A stretch of DNA of 64,000 nucleotides from Streptomyces sp. NRRL S-1022 (GTDB lineage: Bacteria; Actinomycetota; Actinomycetes; Streptomycetales; Streptomycetaceae): positions 310,001 through 374,000 of the forward strand of contig NZ_JOIU01000001.1 in the NCBI RefSeq assembly GCF_000720135.1. The letters run 5' to 3'. A program made the translations under genes and the position numbers. Positions 11,688 to 19,796 of the stretch are shown in pieces; position 1 is the first letter of the stretch, and every line of letters begins with the position of its first letter. Under the pieces are notes generated by a model. The model was not told where the DNA came from. It searched no databases and was given only the letters and a program-made list of their open reading frames with translations.

Positions 11688-12413
11688 TCAGACTCCGGTG
11701 ACGCTGTGGATCCATCGCCGTACGCCGGTCTCGCCGATGGCGACGATGTGCACGACGCGCCCGGGGATATCGACCGAAGCGGTCACGCCCAACTGTACGT
11801 GCAGTGCGTTGCTCACCGGTCCGCCGGAGTCGCCGGGGAGGGGGAGCCCGTCGAGGCCGAACCCGCTGAAGGTGTTTGTGTCCGGAAAGTCTATGACGCG
11901 CACGGTGCACACCTTGAGCACTGGGGACGGTGTGCTGTTGCCAATGGCTGTGTCTCCCCACCCGGACAGGGCGAGATTCGTGTTGCCCGCGGGCAACACA
12001 CCCTCGCCGACGATCGGGGTGATCCAGGCGTTGCTCTTCGCGGGCACCGCGAGTTCCATCAGAGCCACATCGGCGAAGGCATAGCCGGTGTATCCCCTCA
12101 CAGGGACGCGCTGACCGCCTGTGGAGCCGCCGAGGTCCCTTGAGCCAAGAACGACGCTGTAGTTGCCGGGGGTGGGGTTGCCGTTGTTGGTGATGCAGTG
12201 TCTGGCCGTCATGATCCACGTCGGCGCGATCAGGCTGGCCGTGCACGTGTATCGACCATTGAGCTCGAGCTGGGCGGCTCCTCGCAGGGCCCCGGCGATC
12301 TGGCCATCGGAGATGGCGTTGGCCGGGGCAGCCGTGAACACCCCGGAAAGGATCACCGACAGGGCCATCAACAGACCCATCATCATTCGACGCGCTGTTG
12401 CTCCTGGACGCAT
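11688..12413 (-). CDS. Secreted trypsin-like serine protease (S1 family)
   Basis: A 241-residue exported protease. The ATG at 12413 has an AAAGAGG site 7 bases upstream. The signal peptide (MMMGLLMALSVILSGVF, cleavage after ANA at residue 33) has no pro-region of note. The chymotrypsin-fold triad is present: H72 in WIMTARHCI, D115 in FADVALMEL and S196 in GDSGGP. C57 and C73 probably pair around the active-site histidine. It should be an active extracellular endopeptidase. A perfect 22-bp tandem duplication lies just upstream of its ribosome site (12424-12467). It is adjacent to, but probably not part of, the SRPBCC cluster, being separated from it by ~180 bp. Confidence 0.92.
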   Translation of the reverse strand: MRPGATARRMMMGLLMALSVILSGVFTAAPANAISDGQIAGALRGAAQLELNGRYTCTASLIAPTWIMTARHCITNNGNPTPGNYSVVLGSRDLGGSTGGQRVPVRGYTGYAFADVALMELAVPAKSNAWITPIVGEGVLPAGNTNLALSGWGDTAIGNSTPSPVLKVCTVRVIDFPDTNTFSGFGLDGLPLPGDSGGPVSNALHVQLGVTASVDIPGRVVHIVAIGETGVRRWIHSVTGV

Positions 12414-12423
12414 TGCGTACCTC

Positions 12424-12467
12424 TTTCTCCGGTAGGGGGGAATGATTTCTCCGGTAGGGGGGAATGA
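12424..12467. repeat. Perfect 22-bp tandem duplication upstream of the protease gene
   Basis: Two identical 22-bp units lie head to tail at 12424-12445 and 12446-12467. On the minus strand each ends in CCGGAGAAA, so the duplication copies a GGAG ribosome-site-like core in the protease mRNA leader. Confidence 0.9.
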
Positions 12468-12596
12468 CCCACGGTCGGATTCTCCGGCGCCGGCCGCAGG
12501 ACCAGCCTGCGAACGTGATGTCACTTCAGCACTACGCACCGGCGGCGGCTGCCGCGCCTTCGCTGGCAGGTCCCGAATCGACCGCACGGTGACGGG

Positions 12597-13181
12597 CTAC
12601 TTCGCGGCCTCGGCCTCGGCCTCGTGTCGGAGGTTGTCGACCCAGTCGTGGAGGGAGTTGTCGAGGGCGGCCTGTAGGACAGCCTGGTTGGCGACGACGG
12701 GCTCTCCGGTCCACGACTCCTCGGTGTGGACGAGGACGCCGTCGCGGGTCGGCGTGAACGTCCACACGTGGACGGCGGTGATGCCCTGGGCGGGGCCGCC
12801 CCAGGCGAGGCGCTTGCCGGGTCTGACCTGCTTGACGGTGGAAGTGATGTCCAGCCCCTCGGTGCTCCAGCGGAAAACCGAGCCGGGGCGCAGGCGTCCG
12901 GGGGTGTCCTTGACGACCCTCTCCACGCCAGGCTGCCAGGCGGGCCACTTCTCGACATCCGTCTGGATCTTCCAGATGGTGCGCAGGGGGGCGTGGATGA
13001 GGATGTTCTCCCGCGTGATGACCGGCGCGGTCTGATCGATCTGCACGTCAGCGGTGTGCGCGGCGAGGCTCTCGCCAGGGGCGGTGGGCCTGTCGTCGGT
13101 GAGGGCGTGGGCGGTGCCGGAGACGGCGAGGACGAGCACGGTGGAGGCGGCGGTGAACCTCGCCACGGTGAACGTACGCAC
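12597..13181 (-). CDS. Exported SRPBCC (START-like) protein 1
   Basis: A 194-residue protein with a signal peptide (MRTFTVARFTAASTVLVLAV...HA) followed by a polyketide-cyclase/START-like helix-grip domain. Landmarks are the ENILIHAPLRTIWKIQTDVE start, the P-x-WQPGVE loop, the GSVFRWSTEGLDITSTV strand, the GGPAQGITAVHVWTF motif and the C-terminal long helix. It closely resembles the two SRPBCC proteins at 14.7 and 16.6 kb, but only this one has an export signal. The GTG at 13181 follows GAAAGG. SRPBCC folds bind hydrophobic ligands; no catalytic role can be assigned. It is the last gene of the minus-strand cluster, 96 bp after the carotenoid oxygenase gene. Confidence 0.85.
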   Translation of the reverse strand: MRTFTVARFTAASTVLVLAVSGTAHALTDDRPTAPGESLAAHTADVQIDQTAPVITRENILIHAPLRTIWKIQTDVEKWPAWQPGVERVVKDTPGRLRPGSVFRWSTEGLDITSTVKQVRPGKRLAWGGPAQGITAVHVWTFTPTRDGVLVHTEESWTGEPVVANQAVLQAALDNSLHDWVDNLRHEAEAEAAK

Positions 13182-13277
13182 GATGCTTGGCCTTTCGAGG
13201 AGTCTTCGGGGATTTCAGGGAACGGGTGGTGGGTGCGGGCCCGGCCGGGAGGAGCGGACCCCGGCCGCGGGGCGATT

Positions 13278-14669
13278 TCAGCTGTCGGAGGCGTCGGTGC
13301 CGGTGCCGGTGCCGGTGTCGGTGCCGGTGTCGGTGTCCGGGATCCAGGAGCCGTGGATGCCGCCGGTGACCCGTCGTGGCAGGTGGACGGTGGCGATCCG
13401 GTCGAGGCCGGAGGCGTCCAGGACCAGGAGTTGGGAGGCGTCCTGCTTGAGGTCGGAGACGACCGTGAGCAGATAGCCGTCGTCCTCGCGGGTGGCTCCT
13501 GCGGCGGGCACGAACACGGCCTCGCTGGGCAGGCGGGCGTCCCCGGCCTGGTGGACGCGGCGGGCGCCGGTGGTGCGGTCGTACTTGACGATGCCGTAGC
13601 CGCCGTAGCCGTCCTGGTCGGGGAAGGAGACCGCGTACTGGTAGCGGTTCTCGGCGCCGAGGAAGTCCTCGTTGAGCGTGGGGAACTCGACGGCGAGGTC
13701 GTCGGTGATCCGCTCGTCGACGCGGCCGGCGGCCAGGTCGACGACCCAACGGCGGTTGTATGAGCGCGTGTTGGGCTCCGTGCCGCGGCCGGGGGCGCCG
13801 ACCCACCAGTTCCAGGAGAGCTGGAAGCCCTCCTTGTCCACCGTCGGGCCCTCCAGCACGATGCGGCCCTGGGTGTCCTCGTAGGCGTTGCCGGCGTGCA
13901 GCATGTTGCCCGGCTCGATGGGGAACCAGCGGATCTCTCCGGCGCCCTCCGGGCCGCGGGGCATGACGCCGATCCGGGCGGGCTGGTCGTCGTTCCAGGA
14001 GTACGGGATGCCGGAGTGCTCGGTCGGGTCGAAGGTGACCGTGCCTTCGACGAAGACCACGTAGTGACGTGTGAGCGCGAAGTCGTGCTTGAGGGAGGCG
14101 GTGGCGCCCGGCACCTCGAAGCTGTGCGTGACCTGGCCCTTGGCGTCGGCGACGTAGTACATCAGGTACGGCGGGAACGGCGAGGAGCCGAAGAAGTGCA
14201 ACTCCCCGGTGACCGGGTCGGTCTTGGGGTGTGCGGTCATCGCGCTGCGCAGCTTGCCGTCGAAGTCGTAGGCGCCGACGGTGTCCAGGTCCCGGGTGAG
14301 TTCGAAGGGGAGGTTCGCCTCGCACAGGGCGAGGAGGCGCCCGGCGTGTTCCACGACGTGGGTCCCGGCGGTGCTGGCGGTCAGGTCGGGGCCGTGCTCG
14401 GTGAGGTAGGGGGCGCCGTCCAGGGCGGGGGTGCGGACCCAGCGGTTGCGGTACCACTCGGCGCGGCCCTCGCGCAGACGGATGCCGTGGACCATGCCGC
14501 TGCCCTTGAACCAGTGGGTGGGGGTGACGCCGGGCTTGGGGTTGTGGCTGTTGCGGATCAGCCGGCCGGTCAGCTCCGGCGGCAGGCTGCCCTCGACGGT
14601 CAGACCGGTGGCGGTGATCTCGTCGACGGCCGGGGTGTAGTGGCCGATCAGGTAGGGCTTGGTGGACAT
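13278..14669 (-). CDS. Carotenoid oxygenase family dioxygenase (RPE65/CCD-like)
   Basis: A 463-residue enzyme of the seven-bladed propeller family that cleaves carbon-carbon double bonds with Fe(II) and O2 (carotenoids, apocarotenoids, stilbenes). All four iron-binding histidines are present in family context: H147 (AHPKTDP), H195 (KHDFALTRH), H258 (NMLHAGNAYE) and H439 (GGIHGSW). Residues ~446-463 form a Thr-Asp-Gly tail encoded by a short tandem repeat. It is cytoplasmic, with no signal peptide. SRPBCC genes flank it on both sides and an exporter and LuxR-type regulator lie upstream, so it probably acts in a small pathway on a hydrophobic substrate. Whether that is a carotenoid, a stilbene or something else cannot be told. 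Confidence 0.93.
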   Translation of the reverse strand: MSTKPYLIGHYTPAVDEITATGLTVEGSLPPELTGRLIRNSHNPKPGVTPTHWFKGSGMVHGIRLREGRAEWYRNRWVRTPALDGAPYLTEHGPDLTASTAGTHVVEHAGRLLALCEANLPFELTRDLDTVGAYDFDGKLRSAMTAHPKTDPVTGELHFFGSSPFPPYLMYYVADAKGQVTHSFEVPGATASLKHDFALTRHYVVFVEGTVTFDPTEHSGIPYSWNDDQPARIGVMPRGPEGAGEIRWFPIEPGNMLHAGNAYEDTQGRIVLEGPTVDKEGFQLSWNWWVGAPGRGTEPNTRSYNRRWVVDLAAGRVDERITDDLAVEFPTLNEDFLGAENRYQYAVSFPDQDGYGGYGIVKYDRTTGARRVHQAGDARLPSEAVFVPAAGATREDDGYLLTVVSDLKQDASQLLVLDASGLDRIATVHLPRRVTGGIHGSWIPDTDTGTDTGTGTGTDASDS

Positions 14670-14720
14670 GTGTGAACCTCGTCGCTCGGTGGTGTCGTTG
14701 TGGGTGCTGATGATGGTCAG

Positions 14721-15161
14721 TCAGGAGGACTGCTCGGCACGGGACTTGAGGGCCAGGAGCCAGGACTGGAGGGACTGTTCGAGGGCTTGGCCGAGTTCTT
14801 CGACGGCGGCCTCGACGGGGGCACCGGCCCAGGACTCCTCGGTGCGGACGGTCACCTGGCCGCCGTCGGCTTCGAAGGTCCACACATGGACGCCGTCGAT
14901 GCCGTTCGCGGGGCCGCCCCAGACGATCCGGGCGCCGGGGACGATCTCGTGGAGGGTGGAGGTGATGTCCAGTCCGTGGGTCTTCCAGCGGAAGGAGCTG
15001 CCGGGCTGGAGCGGGCCGTCGAGCCTGGCCTCGTCGACGTGCGTGTTCCACTCGGCCCAGGCGTCGATGCCGGTGTGCAGGTTCCACACCGTCTCCAGCG
15101 GAGCGTCGATCACGGTCGAGAGCCGGACGACGACGGGAGCGGATTCGTCGATGGTGCGCAT
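14721..15161 (-). CDS. SRPBCC (START-like) protein 2
   Basis: A 146-residue cytoplasmic member. Landmarks are RLSTVIDAPLETVWNLHTGI, the WAEWNTHV loop, SSFRWKTHGLDITSTLHEI, the shared GGPANGIDGVHVWTF motif, the RTEESWAGAPVE strand-turn and the long C-terminal helix. The ATG at 15161 follows AGGGAAA and lies inside the 3' end of the MFS gene (52-bp overlap), so the two are coupled. Its stop is 51 bp from the carotenoid oxygenase start. It is a paralogue of the genes at 12.6 and 16.6 kb. Confidence 0.88.
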   Translation of the reverse strand: MRTIDESAPVVVRLSTVIDAPLETVWNLHTGIDAWAEWNTHVDEARLDGPLQPGSSFRWKTHGLDITSTLHEIVPGARIVWGGPANGIDGVHVWTFEADGGQVTVRTEESWAGAPVEAAVEELGQALEQSLQSWLLALKSRAEQSS

Positions 15162-16576
15162 GGTGCTTTCCCTGCTTTCGTGTTCGAACGGGTCAGAAGA
15201 GAGGCGAGAAGGGCGGTTGCCACAAGGACTGCGGCGGAGATGCCGAACGCGGTGCGGTATCCCTCGGTCAGCGCCTCCAGGTGTGGCCGGTGGGCGGCCG
15301 AGGTGACGGTTCCGGCGACGGTGGTCAGCACCGCGAGGCCGATCGCACCGCCGACCTGGCGTGTGGTGTTCACCAGTCCCCCGGCCACCCCGGAGTCGTC
15401 CTTGGCCACGCCTTCGATGGAGAGGGCGGTGAGCTGGACGAACGCGACGCTCAGGCCGAGGCCGACCAGGACGCTCGGGCCCAGGACATCGGTGACGAAG
15501 CTTCCGTGCACACCGATGCGCGAGAGCCACAGCATTCCGGCGGCCTCGGTGAGCAGTGCTCCGATCACCGTGGCCGTGGCGCCGATCCGGCGTGCGATCC
15601 GCGGTGCGAGGGTCGCGCCGAGCATGTTCGCGGCGGCGAGGGGGAGTTGTCCGAGACCGGTGACCAGCGGGCTGGCACCGAGGACCTGCTGCTGGTAGAG
15701 CGGCAGGAAGAAGAACAGCGCGATCCATACCGAACCGAACAGGCCCATCAGGACGTTTCCTGCGGTCACCCGGCCCCCGGCGAACAGCCTGGGCGGCACC
15801 AGCGGGTGGCGGCTGCCCCGTTCGATCAGGACGAACGCCGCCCCGAGGACGGCCGCCAGCACGAAGGCGCCGAGTACGGGGCCGTCCGTCCACCCGTCGC
15901 TGCGGGCGGTGGTCAGCCCCCACACCAGACCGGTCAGCGCGAGGCCGATCGTGGCGGTGCCGGGGAGATCGAACCGAGCCGCCGCCGCTGCCGCGGTCTG
16001 TGGGACGAGGACGGCTGAGGCGCCCAGGACCAGGAACGTTCCGACAGCGACCGCGTGGAAGATCCATGGCCAGCCCCACGCCTGGTTCAGTACGCCGCCG
16101 AGGACGACCCCCGCCGCGCCTCCGGCGCCGGACACCGCGCCCCAGATACCCAGCGCCCTGCCCCGCCCCGGCCCCGGCGGGTAGAGGTCCATCACCAGAG
16201 CGAGGGCCGCGGGGGCGACGACCGCGGCGCCGGTCCCCTGCACCGCGCGGGCACCGATGAGGACGGCGGGCGAAGTCGCCAGTCCCGCTGCCGCCGAGGC
16301 CGCCCCGAAGAGCGCGAGGCCCGCGAACAGCACCCGGCGGCGTCCCAGCAGGTCTGCTGCTCGCCCGCCGGCGAGCAGCAGGGCTCCGAACGCCAGGCCG
16401 TAGGCGTTGACCACCCAGGTGGTGCCGCCGTCCGACAGACCGACGCCGTCGCGGATCTGGGGCAGAGCGACGTTCACGATCGACGTCGCGAGCATGACGG
16501 TGAACTGCGCGGCGGCCAGAGCGGTGAGGGCGGCGCCGCGGGATCGCTTGCGCATGGCGGGCTCCACAGCGGTCAT
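15110..16576 (-). CDS. MFS exporter, DHA2-like, in the SRPBCC/carotenoid-oxygenase cluster
   Basis: A 488-residue membrane protein with 14-helix DHA2 layout: SIVNVALPQIRDGV in helix 1, the GGRAADLLGRRRV loop, and the RAVQGTGAAVVAPAALALVM motif. The start ATG at 16576 overlaps the stop of the upstream SRPBCC gene by 4 bp (ATGA), and its 3' end overlaps the next SRPBCC gene. It would export a hydrophobic product or intermediate of the cluster. It belongs to the same broad family as the 2.3-kb exporter but is clearly a different protein. Confidence 0.93.
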   Translation of the reverse strand: MTAVEPAMRKRSRGAALTALAAAQFTVMLATSIVNVALPQIRDGVGLSDGGTTWVVNAYGLAFGALLLAGGRAADLLGRRRVLFAGLALFGAASAAAGLATSPAVLIGARAVQGTGAAVVAPAALALVMDLYPPGPGRGRALGIWGAVSGAGGAAGVVLGGVLNQAWGWPWIFHAVAVGTFLVLGASAVLVPQTAAAAAARFDLPGTATIGLALTGLVWGLTTARSDGWTDGPVLGAFVLAAVLGAAFVLIERGSRHPLVPPRLFAGGRVTAGNVLMGLFGSVWIALFFFLPLYQQQVLGASPLVTGLGQLPLAAANMLGATLAPRIARRIGATATVIGALLTEAAGMLWLSRIGVHGSFVTDVLGPSVLVGLGLSVAFVQLTALSIEGVAKDDSGVAGGLVNTTRQVGGAIGLAVLTTVAGTVTSAAHRPHLEALTEGYRTAFGISAAVLVATALLASLLTRSNTKAGKAPCAPSTNPLPSSSGSRP

Positions 16577-17028
16577 CGCGGTTTCTCCGCGGCGGTCTTG
16601 AGGTGGCCGAGCCATTGGGCGAGGGAGTCGTCGAGCGCCTGCCGGATGTTGGCGGCGTCGGCCCGCACCGGGGCGCCGTCCCACGACTCCTCGGTCGTGA
16701 CGAGGGTCGCGGCGGGGCCGGACGAGATGAGCGTCCACTGATGTACGGCGACAATGCCCTGGGCCGGGCCGCCCCAGAGGATGAGGCCGGGCGCCTCCAT
16801 CGCGTAGACGGTGGAGGCGATGTCGAGGGCCGCGGTGCGCCAGTGGAACGTCGCGCCCGGCGTCAACGGCGTGCGGGCGCGTGCGGAGACGATGTCGGGC
16901 TGCCAGGACGGCCAAGCGGGCACGTCGGTCAGTAACCCCCAGACCGCGGGGGCGGGAGCTCTGATCGTCAGTTCGTGGCGGGCGACGACGGGGGCGGCGC
17001 GGTCGATGCCGGCGGGCGGGTTGTCCAT
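16573..17028 (-). CDS. SRPBCC (START-like) protein 3
   Basis: A 151-residue cytoplasmic SRPBCC protein: ELTIRAPAPAVWGLLTDVPA, the WPSWQPDI loop, TFHWRTAALDIASTVYAM, the shared GGPAQGIVAVHQWTL motif, TTEESWDGAPV and a final amphipathic helix. It is the first structural gene downstream of the LuxR-type regulator (62-bp gap) and is coupled to the MFS gene by an ATGA overlap. The three SRPBCC paralogues keep the same Trp and GGPA positions, which suggests a shared ligand class. Confidence 0.88.
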   Translation of the reverse strand: MDNPPAGIDRAAPVVARHELTIRAPAPAVWGLLTDVPAWPSWQPDIVSARARTPLTPGATFHWRTAALDIASTVYAMEAPGLILWGGPAQGIVAVHQWTLISSGPAATLVTTEESWDGAPVRADAANIRQALDDSLAQWLGHLKTAAEKPR

Positions 17029-17090
17029 GCGGCCGAGTCTGCTGTGGCGAGACCCGGCCGCTCTTCGGTGAAAGTCGCCTAGACCGTCAC

Positions 17091-19796
17091 CTAGATCGCC
17101 TGGGTGACGAGGTCGGTGAGCTGGCGGCGCGAGGTGATGTCGAGCTTCTTGAAAATGTTGCGCAGGTGGGCGTCGACCGTCCGGGGGCTGAGGAAGAGCC
17201 GGTCCGCGACCTCGCGGGAGGTGGCGCCGGTCGCGACGAGCCGGGCTATGTTGAGTTCCTGGCCGGTGAGCGCCTCCAGCACCCCTCTCGTCACCGATCT
17301 GGCCTGCTCGCCCGCGGCGGCCAGTTCGGCCCGGGCCCGTTCGGCGAATCCCTCCGCGCCCGTCGTGGTGAACAGGTCGTGGGCCGCGCGCAGGGCCTCC
17401 AGCGACTCACGGCGGCGGCCGTCGCGGCGCAGCCACGCCCCTTGGTGCAGCAGGGCCCGGCCATGCCAGATCCGCATGCCGCCGGCGCCCAGCCTGGCCA
17501 CCGCCTCGGTATGCAGGGCTTCCGGCTCGTCCGACAGCAGAGCGCCGAGAGCCGCGCGCACCCCGAGCGCCCAGTCGGTGCCCGCGGCCCGCGTGTGCTC
17601 GTCGAGCCGGGCGAACGCCTCGCGGGCGACGGCCTCCTGGCCGCACCGCACCGCCGCCTCGACCAGTTCGGGCAGTGCCATGCTGCTCATCGACAGGTCG
17701 CCGTCGGTGAGTGCCAGCTTCGCAGATTCGAGCGCCGCGCGGTGGTCGGCGACGCCGTTGGCGTAGAACGCGGCGGCGCTGTGGGCCATCGCCGTCAGCA
17801 TCCCCTTGCGGCGGGCCCGCGACTCGGCCAGCACCCGGTCGATCAGCGGCCTGGCTTCGGCGGGCCGGCCGCGCACGGCCGCGACCTGCAGGTGACCGTA
17901 CCAGTGGACCGGGACCCCGGTCACCTCGGCGATGCCGTCGGCCTCGCCGAGCAGGGCGGAGGCGTCGAGCAGCGCGCCGCGCTGGGCGGCGGCCATGGCC
18001 CGCATCCAGAGGCCGACCGGCAGGATCATCAGCGCTCCGCAGCTCCGGGCCGCTGTGACGGCCTGGGTGGCGAATCGTTCCTCCAGGGCGAAGTCCCACA
18101 GTTCCACGGCGAGCAGCGCCGCCAACGACAGGCGCCGTGACCACAGCGGGTCGGTCGTGTCCGACAGCATGCGGGACAGTACGGGCACCGTCGCGAGATC
18201 ACCGTCGAGGTAGGCGACCAGCGTGTCCAGCAGGTCGTCGGCGCCGGTGCGGTGCCCCGGGGGAACGGATGCCTGCCGGGCCGCCTGAAGGGCGGTACGG
18301 CAGGCGGGCGAGGACCGGCCGACGACGAGCCCCGCCTGCAGCGCGTCCAGCAGGTACAGCCGGGCCCGGCCGGGGTCGAGTCCGGCGGCCCGGATCAGAT
18401 GGCCGACGGCGTCGGCCGCGCCGTCGCGGAAGAACGCCGCCTGTCCGCGGGCGAGTTCGGCCTCGACCCGCCCGGCGTCGTCGATGGGGCCGTGCTCTGC
18501 CGCGTCGACCAGGGTGATAGCGGTCTCGAAGGCGCCGGCCTCCAGCGCCGCCCGTGCCGCGGCGAGGCTGCGCTTGGCCCGGAACCGGGGATCGGGAGTG
18601 AGGGACGCGGCCTGTTGGAGGAACGCGGCCTCGGCCGCCGCCCCGCCCCGCCGCCGGGCCCGCTCCGCGCTGCGCAGCAGATCGGCCGCGACGTCCTCAT
18701 CGGGCCGGGGTGCGGCCTGAGACCGGTGCCAGGAGCGCCGGTCGGGATCAGTCTGCGGGTCGGTGACGTCGGCGAGCGCTCCGTGGACGAGCCGCCGGTC
18801 GGCCGGTGACGCGGCGGCGTACACGGCCGACCGCACCAGCGGGTGCCGGAACCGGGACCGGCCTCCCAACTCGATCAGCTCCTCCGCCTCGGCCTCGGTT
18901 CCGGCCTCCGGTTTCACGTCGAGCAGATCCGCGGCCCGCCACAGCAGACCCGGGTCGCCGAGCGGCTCGGAGGCCGCGATCAGCAGCAACATCCGGGCTC
19001 CGGGCGACAGCCGGGAGACCCGCTCCCGGTAACTCTGCTCGATCCGGTTCGCCGGCGAGGCGGGAGTGGGCAGCCCGAATCCGCCCGCGAGTCCGGCGGG
19101 ACCGAGCCTGCGCGGCAGTTCCAGCAGCGCGAGCGGATTGCCGCGCGCCTCGGCGAGAATCCGCTCACGCACCCGGTCGTCAAGCGGCACCGGAACCCCG
19201 GACGCCAGCAGGTCGCGTGCCGCCTGATCGGACAAGCCCGACAGCTTCAGCTCCGGCAGCCCGTCCAGCTCGTCGACGCCGTGCGGATCGCGCAACCCGA
19301 ACACGAGCGCGATCGGCTCCGCGCCGATCCTGCGCGCCGCGAACGCCAGAACCTGCGCCGACGCCCGGTCGAGCCACTGCGCGTCATCCACGACGCAGAC
19401 CACGGGCGACTCTCCCGCCGCCTCCGACAGCAGCCCCAACACACCGAGTGCCACCGCGAACTGACTGGGCGCGCTGCCCTCCCCGAGCCCGAACGCCACC
19501 GACAGATCGTTCCCCTGCCGGGCCGGCAGCCGCCCGATCCGGTCGTGCAACGGCCGGGTGAGCTGATGCACCGCCGCGTAGGCGAAGTCCGCCTCGAACT
19601 CGGCCCCGTTCACCCACAGCACCCGCAACCCGTCCTGAGCGTCCAGGACATGCCGCAGGAGAGTGGTCTTGCCGATGCCCGCCTCACCGCGGACCACCAC
19701 CGCGCCACCACGACCGGACGCGGCCGCCGCGATCAGATCGGTTATGGCAGCGCGCCCATCTGGTGGGAAATAGCTTGGAATCGTAAGAAAATCCAC
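17091..19796 (-). CDS. LAL-type LuxR family regulator with altered N-terminus
   Basis: A ~900-residue large ATP-binding LuxR regulator. The Walker A motif GEAGIGKT is at ~37-44 and Walker B (VVCVVDDAQWLD) at ~132-141, followed by a long helical middle and a C-terminal LuxR helix-turn-helix (LTGQELNIARLVATGATSRE ... SPRTVDAHLRNIFKKL). It is the natural activator candidate for the five-gene cluster just downstream on the same strand. The first ~13 codons (GTG at 19796) lie in A+T-rich DNA with non-Streptomyces codon use, and the family's usual first ~15 residues (the LxGRE segment) are missing. The native start was therefore probably lost in the rearrangement that also cut the neighbouring SGNH gene. 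The core motifs are intact. Confidence 0.88.
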   Translation of the reverse strand: MDFLTIPSYFPPDGRAAITDLIAAAASGRGGAVVVRGEAGIGKTTLLRHVLDAQDGLRVLWVNGAEFEADFAYAAVHQLTRPLHDRIGRLPARQGNDLSVAFGLGEGSAPSQFAVALGVLGLLSEAAGESPVVCVVDDAQWLDRASAQVLAFAARRIGAEPIALVFGLRDPHGVDELDGLPELKLSGLSDQAARDLLASGVPVPLDDRVRERILAEARGNPLALLELPRRLGPAGLAGGFGLPTPASPANRIEQSYRERVSRLSPGARMLLLIAASEPLGDPGLLWRAADLLDVKPEAGTEAEAEELIELGGRSRFRHPLVRSAVYAAASPADRRLVHGALADVTDPQTDPDRRSWHRSQAAPRPDEDVAADLLRSAERARRRGGAAAEAAFLQQAASLTPDPRFRAKRSLAAARAALEAGAFETAITLVDAAEHGPIDDAGRVEAELARGQAAFFRDGAADAVGHLIRAAGLDPGRARLYLLDALQAGLVVGRSSPACRTALQAARQASVPPGHRTGADDLLDTLVAYLDGDLATVPVLSRMLSDTTDPLWSRRLSLAALLAVELWDFALEERFATQAVTAARSCGALMILPVGLWMRAMAAAQRGALLDASALLGEADGIAEVTGVPVHWYGHLQVAAVRGRPAEARPLIDRVLAESRARRKGMLTAMAHSAAAFYANGVADHRAALESAKLALTDGDLSMSSMALPELVEAAVRCGQEAVAREAFARLDEHTRAAGTDWALGVRAALGALLSDEPEALHTEAVARLGAGGMRIWHGRALLHQGAWLRRDGRRRESLEALRAAHDLFTTTGAEGFAERARAELAAAGEQARSVTRGVLEALTGQELNIARLVATGATSREVADRLFLSPRTVDAHLRNIFKKLDITSRRQLTDLVTQAI

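Follow-up and report, generated by a model that had tools for sequence, protein, structure and literature searches.

We have studied a cluster of six genes in the genome of Streptomyces sp. NRRL S-1022. The cluster lies in a stretch of 64,000 nucleotides (C1:310001-374000 of the 8.9 Mb genome), which we call the window and whose numbering is used for its genes. An earlier note on this DNA had described five minus-strand genes downstream of a LAL-type activator, and all six open reading frames (ORFs) are indeed present there on the minus strand; its account of the gene content was correct in nearly every detail. The first gene (17091-19796; GTG start, 901 aa) encodes a LAL regulator, with an N-terminal AAA ATPase domain (Pfam AAA_16) and a C-terminal LuxR-type helix-turn-helix (GerE). 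This is followed by SRPBCC-A, a START-like protein without a leader (16573-17028; 151 aa); a major facilitator superfamily (MFS) transporter of the drug-efflux type, similar to EmrB and Lmr(A) (15110-16576; 488 aa, PF07690, MFS_1); SRPBCC-B, also START-like and leaderless (14721-15161; 146 aa); an enzyme of the carotenoid-cleavage-oxygenase family (CCO; 13278-14669; 463 aa); and SRPBCC-C, a START-like protein with an N-terminal signal peptide (12597-13181; GTG start, 194 aa). The third-position GC content of 0.86-0.96 across all six ORFs, together with conservation of the proteins in other species, supports the view that they are coding.

The two overlapping pairs that had been reported are both found. 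SRPBCC-A and the MFS gene overlap by 4 bases at the start of the latter, and the 3′ end of the MFS gene overlaps SRPBCC-B by 52 bases (15110-15161); the remaining gaps are 51-96 bases. The longer overlap is unusual. From 29 pairs flagged in related loci, three of which were other gene pairs, we kept 26 MFS-SRPBCC pairs, and only one of these overlaps, by 16 bases (L042; L and G numbers are our labels for loci and genomes). The cluster probably forms a single operon. A scan of the cluster for promoters and terminators gave nothing convincing, and scanning the window against Rfam and for tRNA genes returned no matches. Beyond SRPBCC-C lies a gene for a trypsin-like protease (11688-12587, minus strand), whose ORF opens 9 bases past SRPBCC-C and whose start, judged by eye, is likely at about 12413. 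Since a trypsin-like fragment also follows SRPBCC-C in L008 (by eye), the protease may be a recurrent neighbor.

The three SRPBCC proteins contain the common motif GGPA-x-GI...VH-x-W, as had been claimed, reading GGPAQGIVAVHQWTL in SRPBCC-A, GGPANGIDGVHVWTF in SRPBCC-B and GGPAQGITAVHVWTF in SRPBCC-C. All three score above the cut-off for Pfam Polyketide_cyc2 (PF10604) and have the helix-grip fold, and the AlphaFold2 model of SRPBCC-B has a pLDDT of 97. The only strong matches to SRPBCC-B in the window genome are the three SRPBCCs of the cluster; the fourth is a partial match at 26%. The proteins had been described as triplicated, and this did not hold: they fall in separate supported groups (SRPBCC-A in a starred clade of its own), i.e., they are old, distinct lineages, and a local triplication is rejected with p = 1e-80 in the approximately unbiased (AU) test of a tree joining the three window proteins (a quick tree). 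One of them was also said to have gained a signal peptide. SRPBCC-C does have a hydrophobic N terminus, as do 15 of 15 of its orthologs, on hydropathy only and with ortholog start codons picked by script for the most hydrophobic leader, which favors this result; that the leader was gained was not borne out. Fold matches of the SRPBCCs were tied among many START families, including aromatases and proteins of unknown function. Profile matches were weak both to the aromatase-cyclase TcmN (E = 1e-4) and to the plant receptor PYL3 (E = 0.86), and identity to the PYLs was 8-16% in the rows shown. When solved structures were searched by profile, chains of the CalC type were not among the matches, a result that is uninformative on fold, and a literature search for "Shy6", a label given to these SRPBCCs in some databases, gave unrelated matches. 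A stand-alone SRPBCC-B-like gene was seen at L099 8112-9430, where no CCO is present; it is transcribed divergently from a TetR_C_33 regulator gene and has an amidohydrolase gene next to it. L101 and L102 are similar to it in gene sizes.

The CCO belongs to PF03055 on both profile match (RPE65, 363 bits) and its propeller fold. The four iron histidines that it was said to keep (H147, H195, H258 and H439) are conserved in 113 of 113 rows, and these and the second-shell glutamates E117, E328 and E383 are all invariant in an alignment of 22 sequences. The best NCBIfam match is NF052295 (8'-apo-carotenoid 13,14-cleaving dioxygenase), for which the enzyme scores 340 bits and the equivalog cut-off is 675. 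Fold searches fail to separate stilbene-cleaving from carotenoid-cleaving members, with LsdA, VP14 and NOV1 within 1 Z unit and ACO 1.8 below the top. The C terminus of the enzyme (13278-13340, minus strand) is a tail of low complexity, rich in Asp-Thr-Gly-Thr (DTDTGTDTGTGTGTDASDS), where pLDDT is < 50, and many ortholog matches end at about residue 447. A second CCO, of 44% identity, is encoded elsewhere in the window genome beside a gene that by eye resembles LysR. The transporter matches MFS_1 and scores 211.9 bits against TIGR00711 (DHA2 efflux MFS), below the cut-off of 230.2; judging from its family, transport would be in the direction of export.

We have examined the conservation of this gene set in other genomes. 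A scan of species genomes gave 149 CCO relatives, and the loci of the best 80 were fetched, five genomes contributing two each. They span Streptomyces, Kitasatospora, Streptacidiphilus, Streptantibioticus, Actinomadura, Actinocorallia, Microbispora and Planobispora. Genes in the related loci were called by a script based on GC bias, neighbors were often named by eye, and the trees are quick ones. Neighborhoods were counted in the 73 loci with at least 6.5 kb upstream and at least 1.5 kb downstream of the CCO. Of these, 64 have an MFS gene near the CCO, 47 have SRPBCC-B, 13 SRPBCC-C and 3 SRPBCC-A, where "near", like "alone" in the gene orders below, depends on the bit-score limits chosen. The complete LAL-A-MFS-B-CCO-C set is rare, being present in 3 of the best 80 loci (L009, L015 and L029); L022, on a short contig, misses just the LAL gene, and two loci that came from the genome draw, L109 and L113, are complete. 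The commoner unit is regulator-MFS-(SRPBCC)-CCO.

Linkage was also measured in both directions across 249 genomes of the family. A full-length CCO (at least 69% identity) occurs patchily, in 48 of these genomes at 53 places. An SRPBCC gene lies within 4 kb of it at 32 of the 53, and at 5 of 10 places where the CCO has 57-60% identity. Conversely, we took the 72 strongest of 112 listed SRPBCC-B-like places and measured their distance from 67 CCO places. A related CCO lies at most 4 kb away for 55 of the 72, comprising 31 of 34, 13 of 19 and 11 of 19 in falling score bands; we estimate that such proximity would arise by chance in about one case in a thousand in genomes of 8-9 Mb. The earlier note would have been refuted by SRPBCC genes found apart from the oxygenase in other genomes; this refutation fails, and the two are linked in several gene orders and on plasmids too.

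Among 101 loci the orders (S denoting SRPBCC) include MFS-S-CCO (30), MFS-S-CCO-S (9), LAL'-MFS-CCO-S (6), S-CCO (4), LAL-S-MFS-S-CCO-S (3), MFS-CCO-S (2) and CCO-MFS-S-S (1). Plasmid copies carry TetR, AAA, MFS, SRPBCC and CCO genes; LAL, MFS, CCO and SRPBCC genes; or PadR, MFS and CCO genes, the last at 46% CCO identity. The linkage of SRPBCC, MFS and CCO therefore survives rearrangement of gene order. In front of CCOs of 48-54% identity lies a gene for a protein of 188-202 aa that looks membrane-like (L097 9008-9598, L098 7376-7981, L122 9095-9676 and L123 6818-7381); the one tested, from L097, gave no Pfam match.

The regulator changes from locus to locus. Upstream of the CCO in the 73 loci we find an AAA-type regulator in 36, TetR in 29 and LAL in 3, with AAA and TetR together in five and none recognized in 10; a divergent PadR takes this role once, at 46% CCO identity. 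Regulators of the LAL, TetR, AAA and PadR types often respond to xenobiotics. The AAA-type family (about 670 aa; L021 5627-7690) combines AAA_16 with a C-terminal helix-turn-helix that appears sigma-like by eye and gave no Pfam or NCBIfam match in the one member tested. In a sister clade (57-60% CCO identity), six of ten places have a LAL gene divergent from MFS-CCO, and five of these six have an SRPBCC after the CCO. In these six genomes the best match to the window LAL (49-51% identity) adjoins the CCO, which suggests that this type of LAL has long been associated with the module.

Some other genes recur nearby. Over the whole of the 80 fetched loci we counted a P450 in 22, a leaderless SnoaL_2 protein in 18 and an SnoaL_2 protein with a leader in 7; four proteins of each SnoaL type were checked against Pfam. 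Examples with a leader are L041 9403-9873, L064 9555-9941 and L072 11412-11912; the gene lies between MFS and CCO, in the slot of SRPBCC-B, in L041 and L064, whereas other loci have it after the CCO. Polyketide cyclases and binders are found in both of these small folds, SnoaL and SRPBCC, which differ from each other. That the two take the same slots is a hint that the module's task involves a small binder or cyclase. The SnoaL_2 protein with a leader is possibly a stand-in for an SRPBCC. SRPBCC-C (15 loci) and secreted SnoaL (7 loci) never co-occur in the 80 loci, where about 1.3 joint occurrences would be expected, so the difference is not significant. The genes downstream are otherwise variable: 11 loci have a TAP-like hydrolase and 3 a multicopper oxidase (one example of each was checked against Pfam), the latter after the CCO with one or two small genes between, in different genera (L019 12332-13888, L021 and L047). 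By eye, none of the recurrent neighbors was recognized as a carotenoid-synthesis gene. A P450 upstream of an AAA-regulated module (L071 3828-5066) matches TIGR04538, a cyclodipeptide-synthase-associated subfamily, with 519.7 bits (cut-off 500), and a second one like it in L072 scores 474 bits.

Where might a carotenoid substrate come from? CrtI is the usual desaturase of bacterial C40 carotenoids. It is found above cut-off in 104 of the 249 genomes, comprising 10 of the 48 CCO carriers versus 94 of the 201 remaining genomes (p = 0.001 in Fisher's test, a statistic that ignores phylogeny). Thus 38 of the 48 carriers lack CrtI above cut-off, and 35 of these lack any match at E = 1e-60. Since CrtI is rare in the carriers, a carotenoid made by the host is not the general substrate, and cleavage of the host's own carotenoid was rejected as a general function. 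There is a precedent for such an enzyme: Rv0654 of M. tuberculosis cleaves both carotenoids and apocarotenoids, although genes for carotenoids are missing from that species (PMC5133782).

These data are best explained by taking the cluster as one version of a regulated actinomycete module whose parts are shuffled. For its function, we tentatively favor an inducible unit that binds, cleaves and pumps an exogenous hydrophobic compound, polyene or apocarotenoid-like, although we hold this with slightly less than even confidence. The swapped regulators, the efflux-type MFS, the plasmid carriage, the patchy distribution and the CrtI-poor carriers all fit such a reading. A regulator that senses the ligand, which is a LAL in this cluster and a TetR, AAA-ATPase or PadR protein in other loci, would switch on the MFS, SRPBCC and CCO genes in response to a hydrophobic conjugated compound from outside the cell, such as an apocarotenoid, a carotenoid fragment or another polyene. 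SRPBCC-A and SRPBCC-B would hold the compound or its products and pass them on, either to the CCO or to the pump. The CCO, as an iron enzyme, would split a C=C bond to give carbonyl products, and the MFS protein would expel product or substrate. The secreted SRPBCC-C may bind the compound outside the cell. From inducer and substrate through cleavage, hand-over and export to a role in tolerance or detoxification, we infer these steps from the genes.

A number of observations weigh against it. The earlier note had proposed binding, cleavage and export of a hydrophobic compound; this is still the best reading, but the full set is rare and the pump is missing beside the CCO in ten individually read loci, four with TetR-SRPBCC-CCO and six with AAA-CCO (one of these six has an SRPBCC after the CCO). 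MFS-CCO is found without an SRPBCC in 22 of the 101 loci and the CCO alone in 15, some of them on short contigs, while 6 of 19 middle-band and 8 of 19 lower-band SRPBCC-B-like genes lie away from a CCO. Four sister-clade places (G248, G031, G224 and G004) have neither LAL nor SRPBCC, and G162 lacks an SRPBCC. Relatives of the LAL at 43-45% also sit away from any CCO, e.g., in G241. In addition to the neglect of phylogeny in the CrtI contrast, three of the 38 carriers that lack CrtI (G126, G181 and G004) have a match below cut-off, and the window genome itself carries CrtI, so that a host-made carotenoid is a possible substrate here. The P450 and SnoaL proteins fit biosynthesis as well as detoxification.

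The main rival is biosynthesis and export of a secreted small molecule, an apocarotenoid-like or other signal or antibiotic, in which SRPBCC or SnoaL proteins would be cyclases, CCO and P450 would tailor the product, the MFS would export it and the LAL would be the activator. We consider this unlikely, though it is the alternative to be taken most seriously. By eye, no core synthase was recognized among the recurrent neighbors within 10 kb; P450 is limited to a minority of loci, and inspection by eye of the upstream ORFs of medium size in five P450 loci revealed no recognizable cyclodipeptide synthase. The lack of a recognized biosynthetic core nearby also counts against self-resistance by sequestration in producers of polyenes or enediynes, which we regard as very improbable. 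CalC and CalU are START-fold proteins that confer self-resistance in this way, and a similar role here would accommodate several SRPBCC homologs with an efflux-type pump, and also SRPBCC-MFS-SRPBCC without a CCO in L115 and L116 (with an adjoining TetR gene in L115).

A further rival is that the CCO is of the lignostilbene-dioxygenase type and serves to break down or detoxify stilbenoids or phenylpropanoids from plants. The enzyme scores 176 bits against NF053778 (cut-off 800) and 156 bits against NF053780 (cut-off 650). CAO1 residues K164 and Y133 bind the phenol of the substrate. The position of K164 is occupied by C116 in the CCO; among 95 close rows (in which several strains were fetched twice) this residue is Cys in 90 and Ser in the other 5, and none of 113 rows has Lys. 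Y133 aligns, across a gappy stretch, with H92, at a variable position that has Tyr in 1 of the 95 rows. No recurrent aldehyde dehydrogenase or ring-cleavage gene was recognized by eye. With the models far below cut-off and the CAO1 lysine absent, identity as a canonical lignostilbene dioxygenase is not supported, and this explanation is improbable. Turnover of the host's own carotenoids, suggested by the enzyme family and by the CrtI of the window genome, is the least probable of all, given the 38 carriers without CrtI, and the window-genome CrtI is on a different contig (C5:86261-87718). A further possibility is a bacterial counterpart of the logic of plant abscisic acid, in which a dioxygenase of the CCD/NCED type and PYL-like START binders, one of them secreted, capture, cleave and sense soil apocarotenoids. 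A plant- or microbe-derived apocarotenoid, free or bound to SRPBCC, would be read by LAL or TetR, and the MFS would clear the ligand. In plants, abscisic acid is made by a CCO-family enzyme with the RPE65 Pfam domain and sensed by PYR/PYL proteins with a Polyketide-cyclase Pfam domain (PMC10217956). The same two Pfam types are paired in the window gene set, but as the SRPBCC fold evidence is unspecific we give this idea low weight and think it quite improbable.

Carotenoid-cleavage oxygenases are common in bacteria, often with substrates that have yet to be identified. Here the CCO is accompanied by a recurrent toolkit of binder, pump and sensor in dozens of species, and 38 of the 48 carriers within one family lack CrtI, which makes the role of such enzymes in soil actinomycetes directly testable. 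The small soluble binders could be used to fish out the ligand, and the regulator offers an assay for the inducer. Were the substrate a plant apocarotenoid, the module would bear on the chemistry between plants and actinomycetes.

The claim that no system of this make-up has been described stands for open-access full text, where we found none; subscription journals were mostly outside the search. Within that literature, no paper was found that names a carotenoid oxygenase together with SRPBCC, while carotenoid oxygenase and polyketide cyclase are both named in PMC10217956 and in a phylogenomic study of Mycobacterium (PMC5819568). Each part belongs to a known family, and the conserved set as a whole is uncharacterized as far as the open-access literature shows. 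The limocrocin system is unrelated to the cluster, on the available part of PMC11727611. Like EmrB and Lmr(A), drug exporters encoded with regulators, the transporter is an MFS protein whose nearest curated models are of that kind; unlike them, it shares its gene set with CCO and SRPBCC and falls short of the TIGR00711 cut-off. The SRPBCCs share the START-like fold and a weak profile match with the aromatase-cyclases TcmN and ZhuI, but no type II polyketide synthase was recognized nearby. They differ from the PYR/PYL partners of plant NCED/CCD enzymes in their low identity, and the START fold is equally that of aromatases and of proteins of unknown function. LsdA, NOV1 and CAO1 are set apart from the window family by its Cys or Ser in place of the CAO1 lysine and by the low model scores. 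MtCCO (Rv0654) and the NF052295 enzymes provide the best NCBIfam match and share the four iron histidines, although the window CCO is below their equivalog cut-off. SRPBCC or MFS partners of Rv0654 go unmentioned in the available portion of PMC5133782, which, as a further likeness, describes a CCO that is active although its host has no genes for carotenoids.

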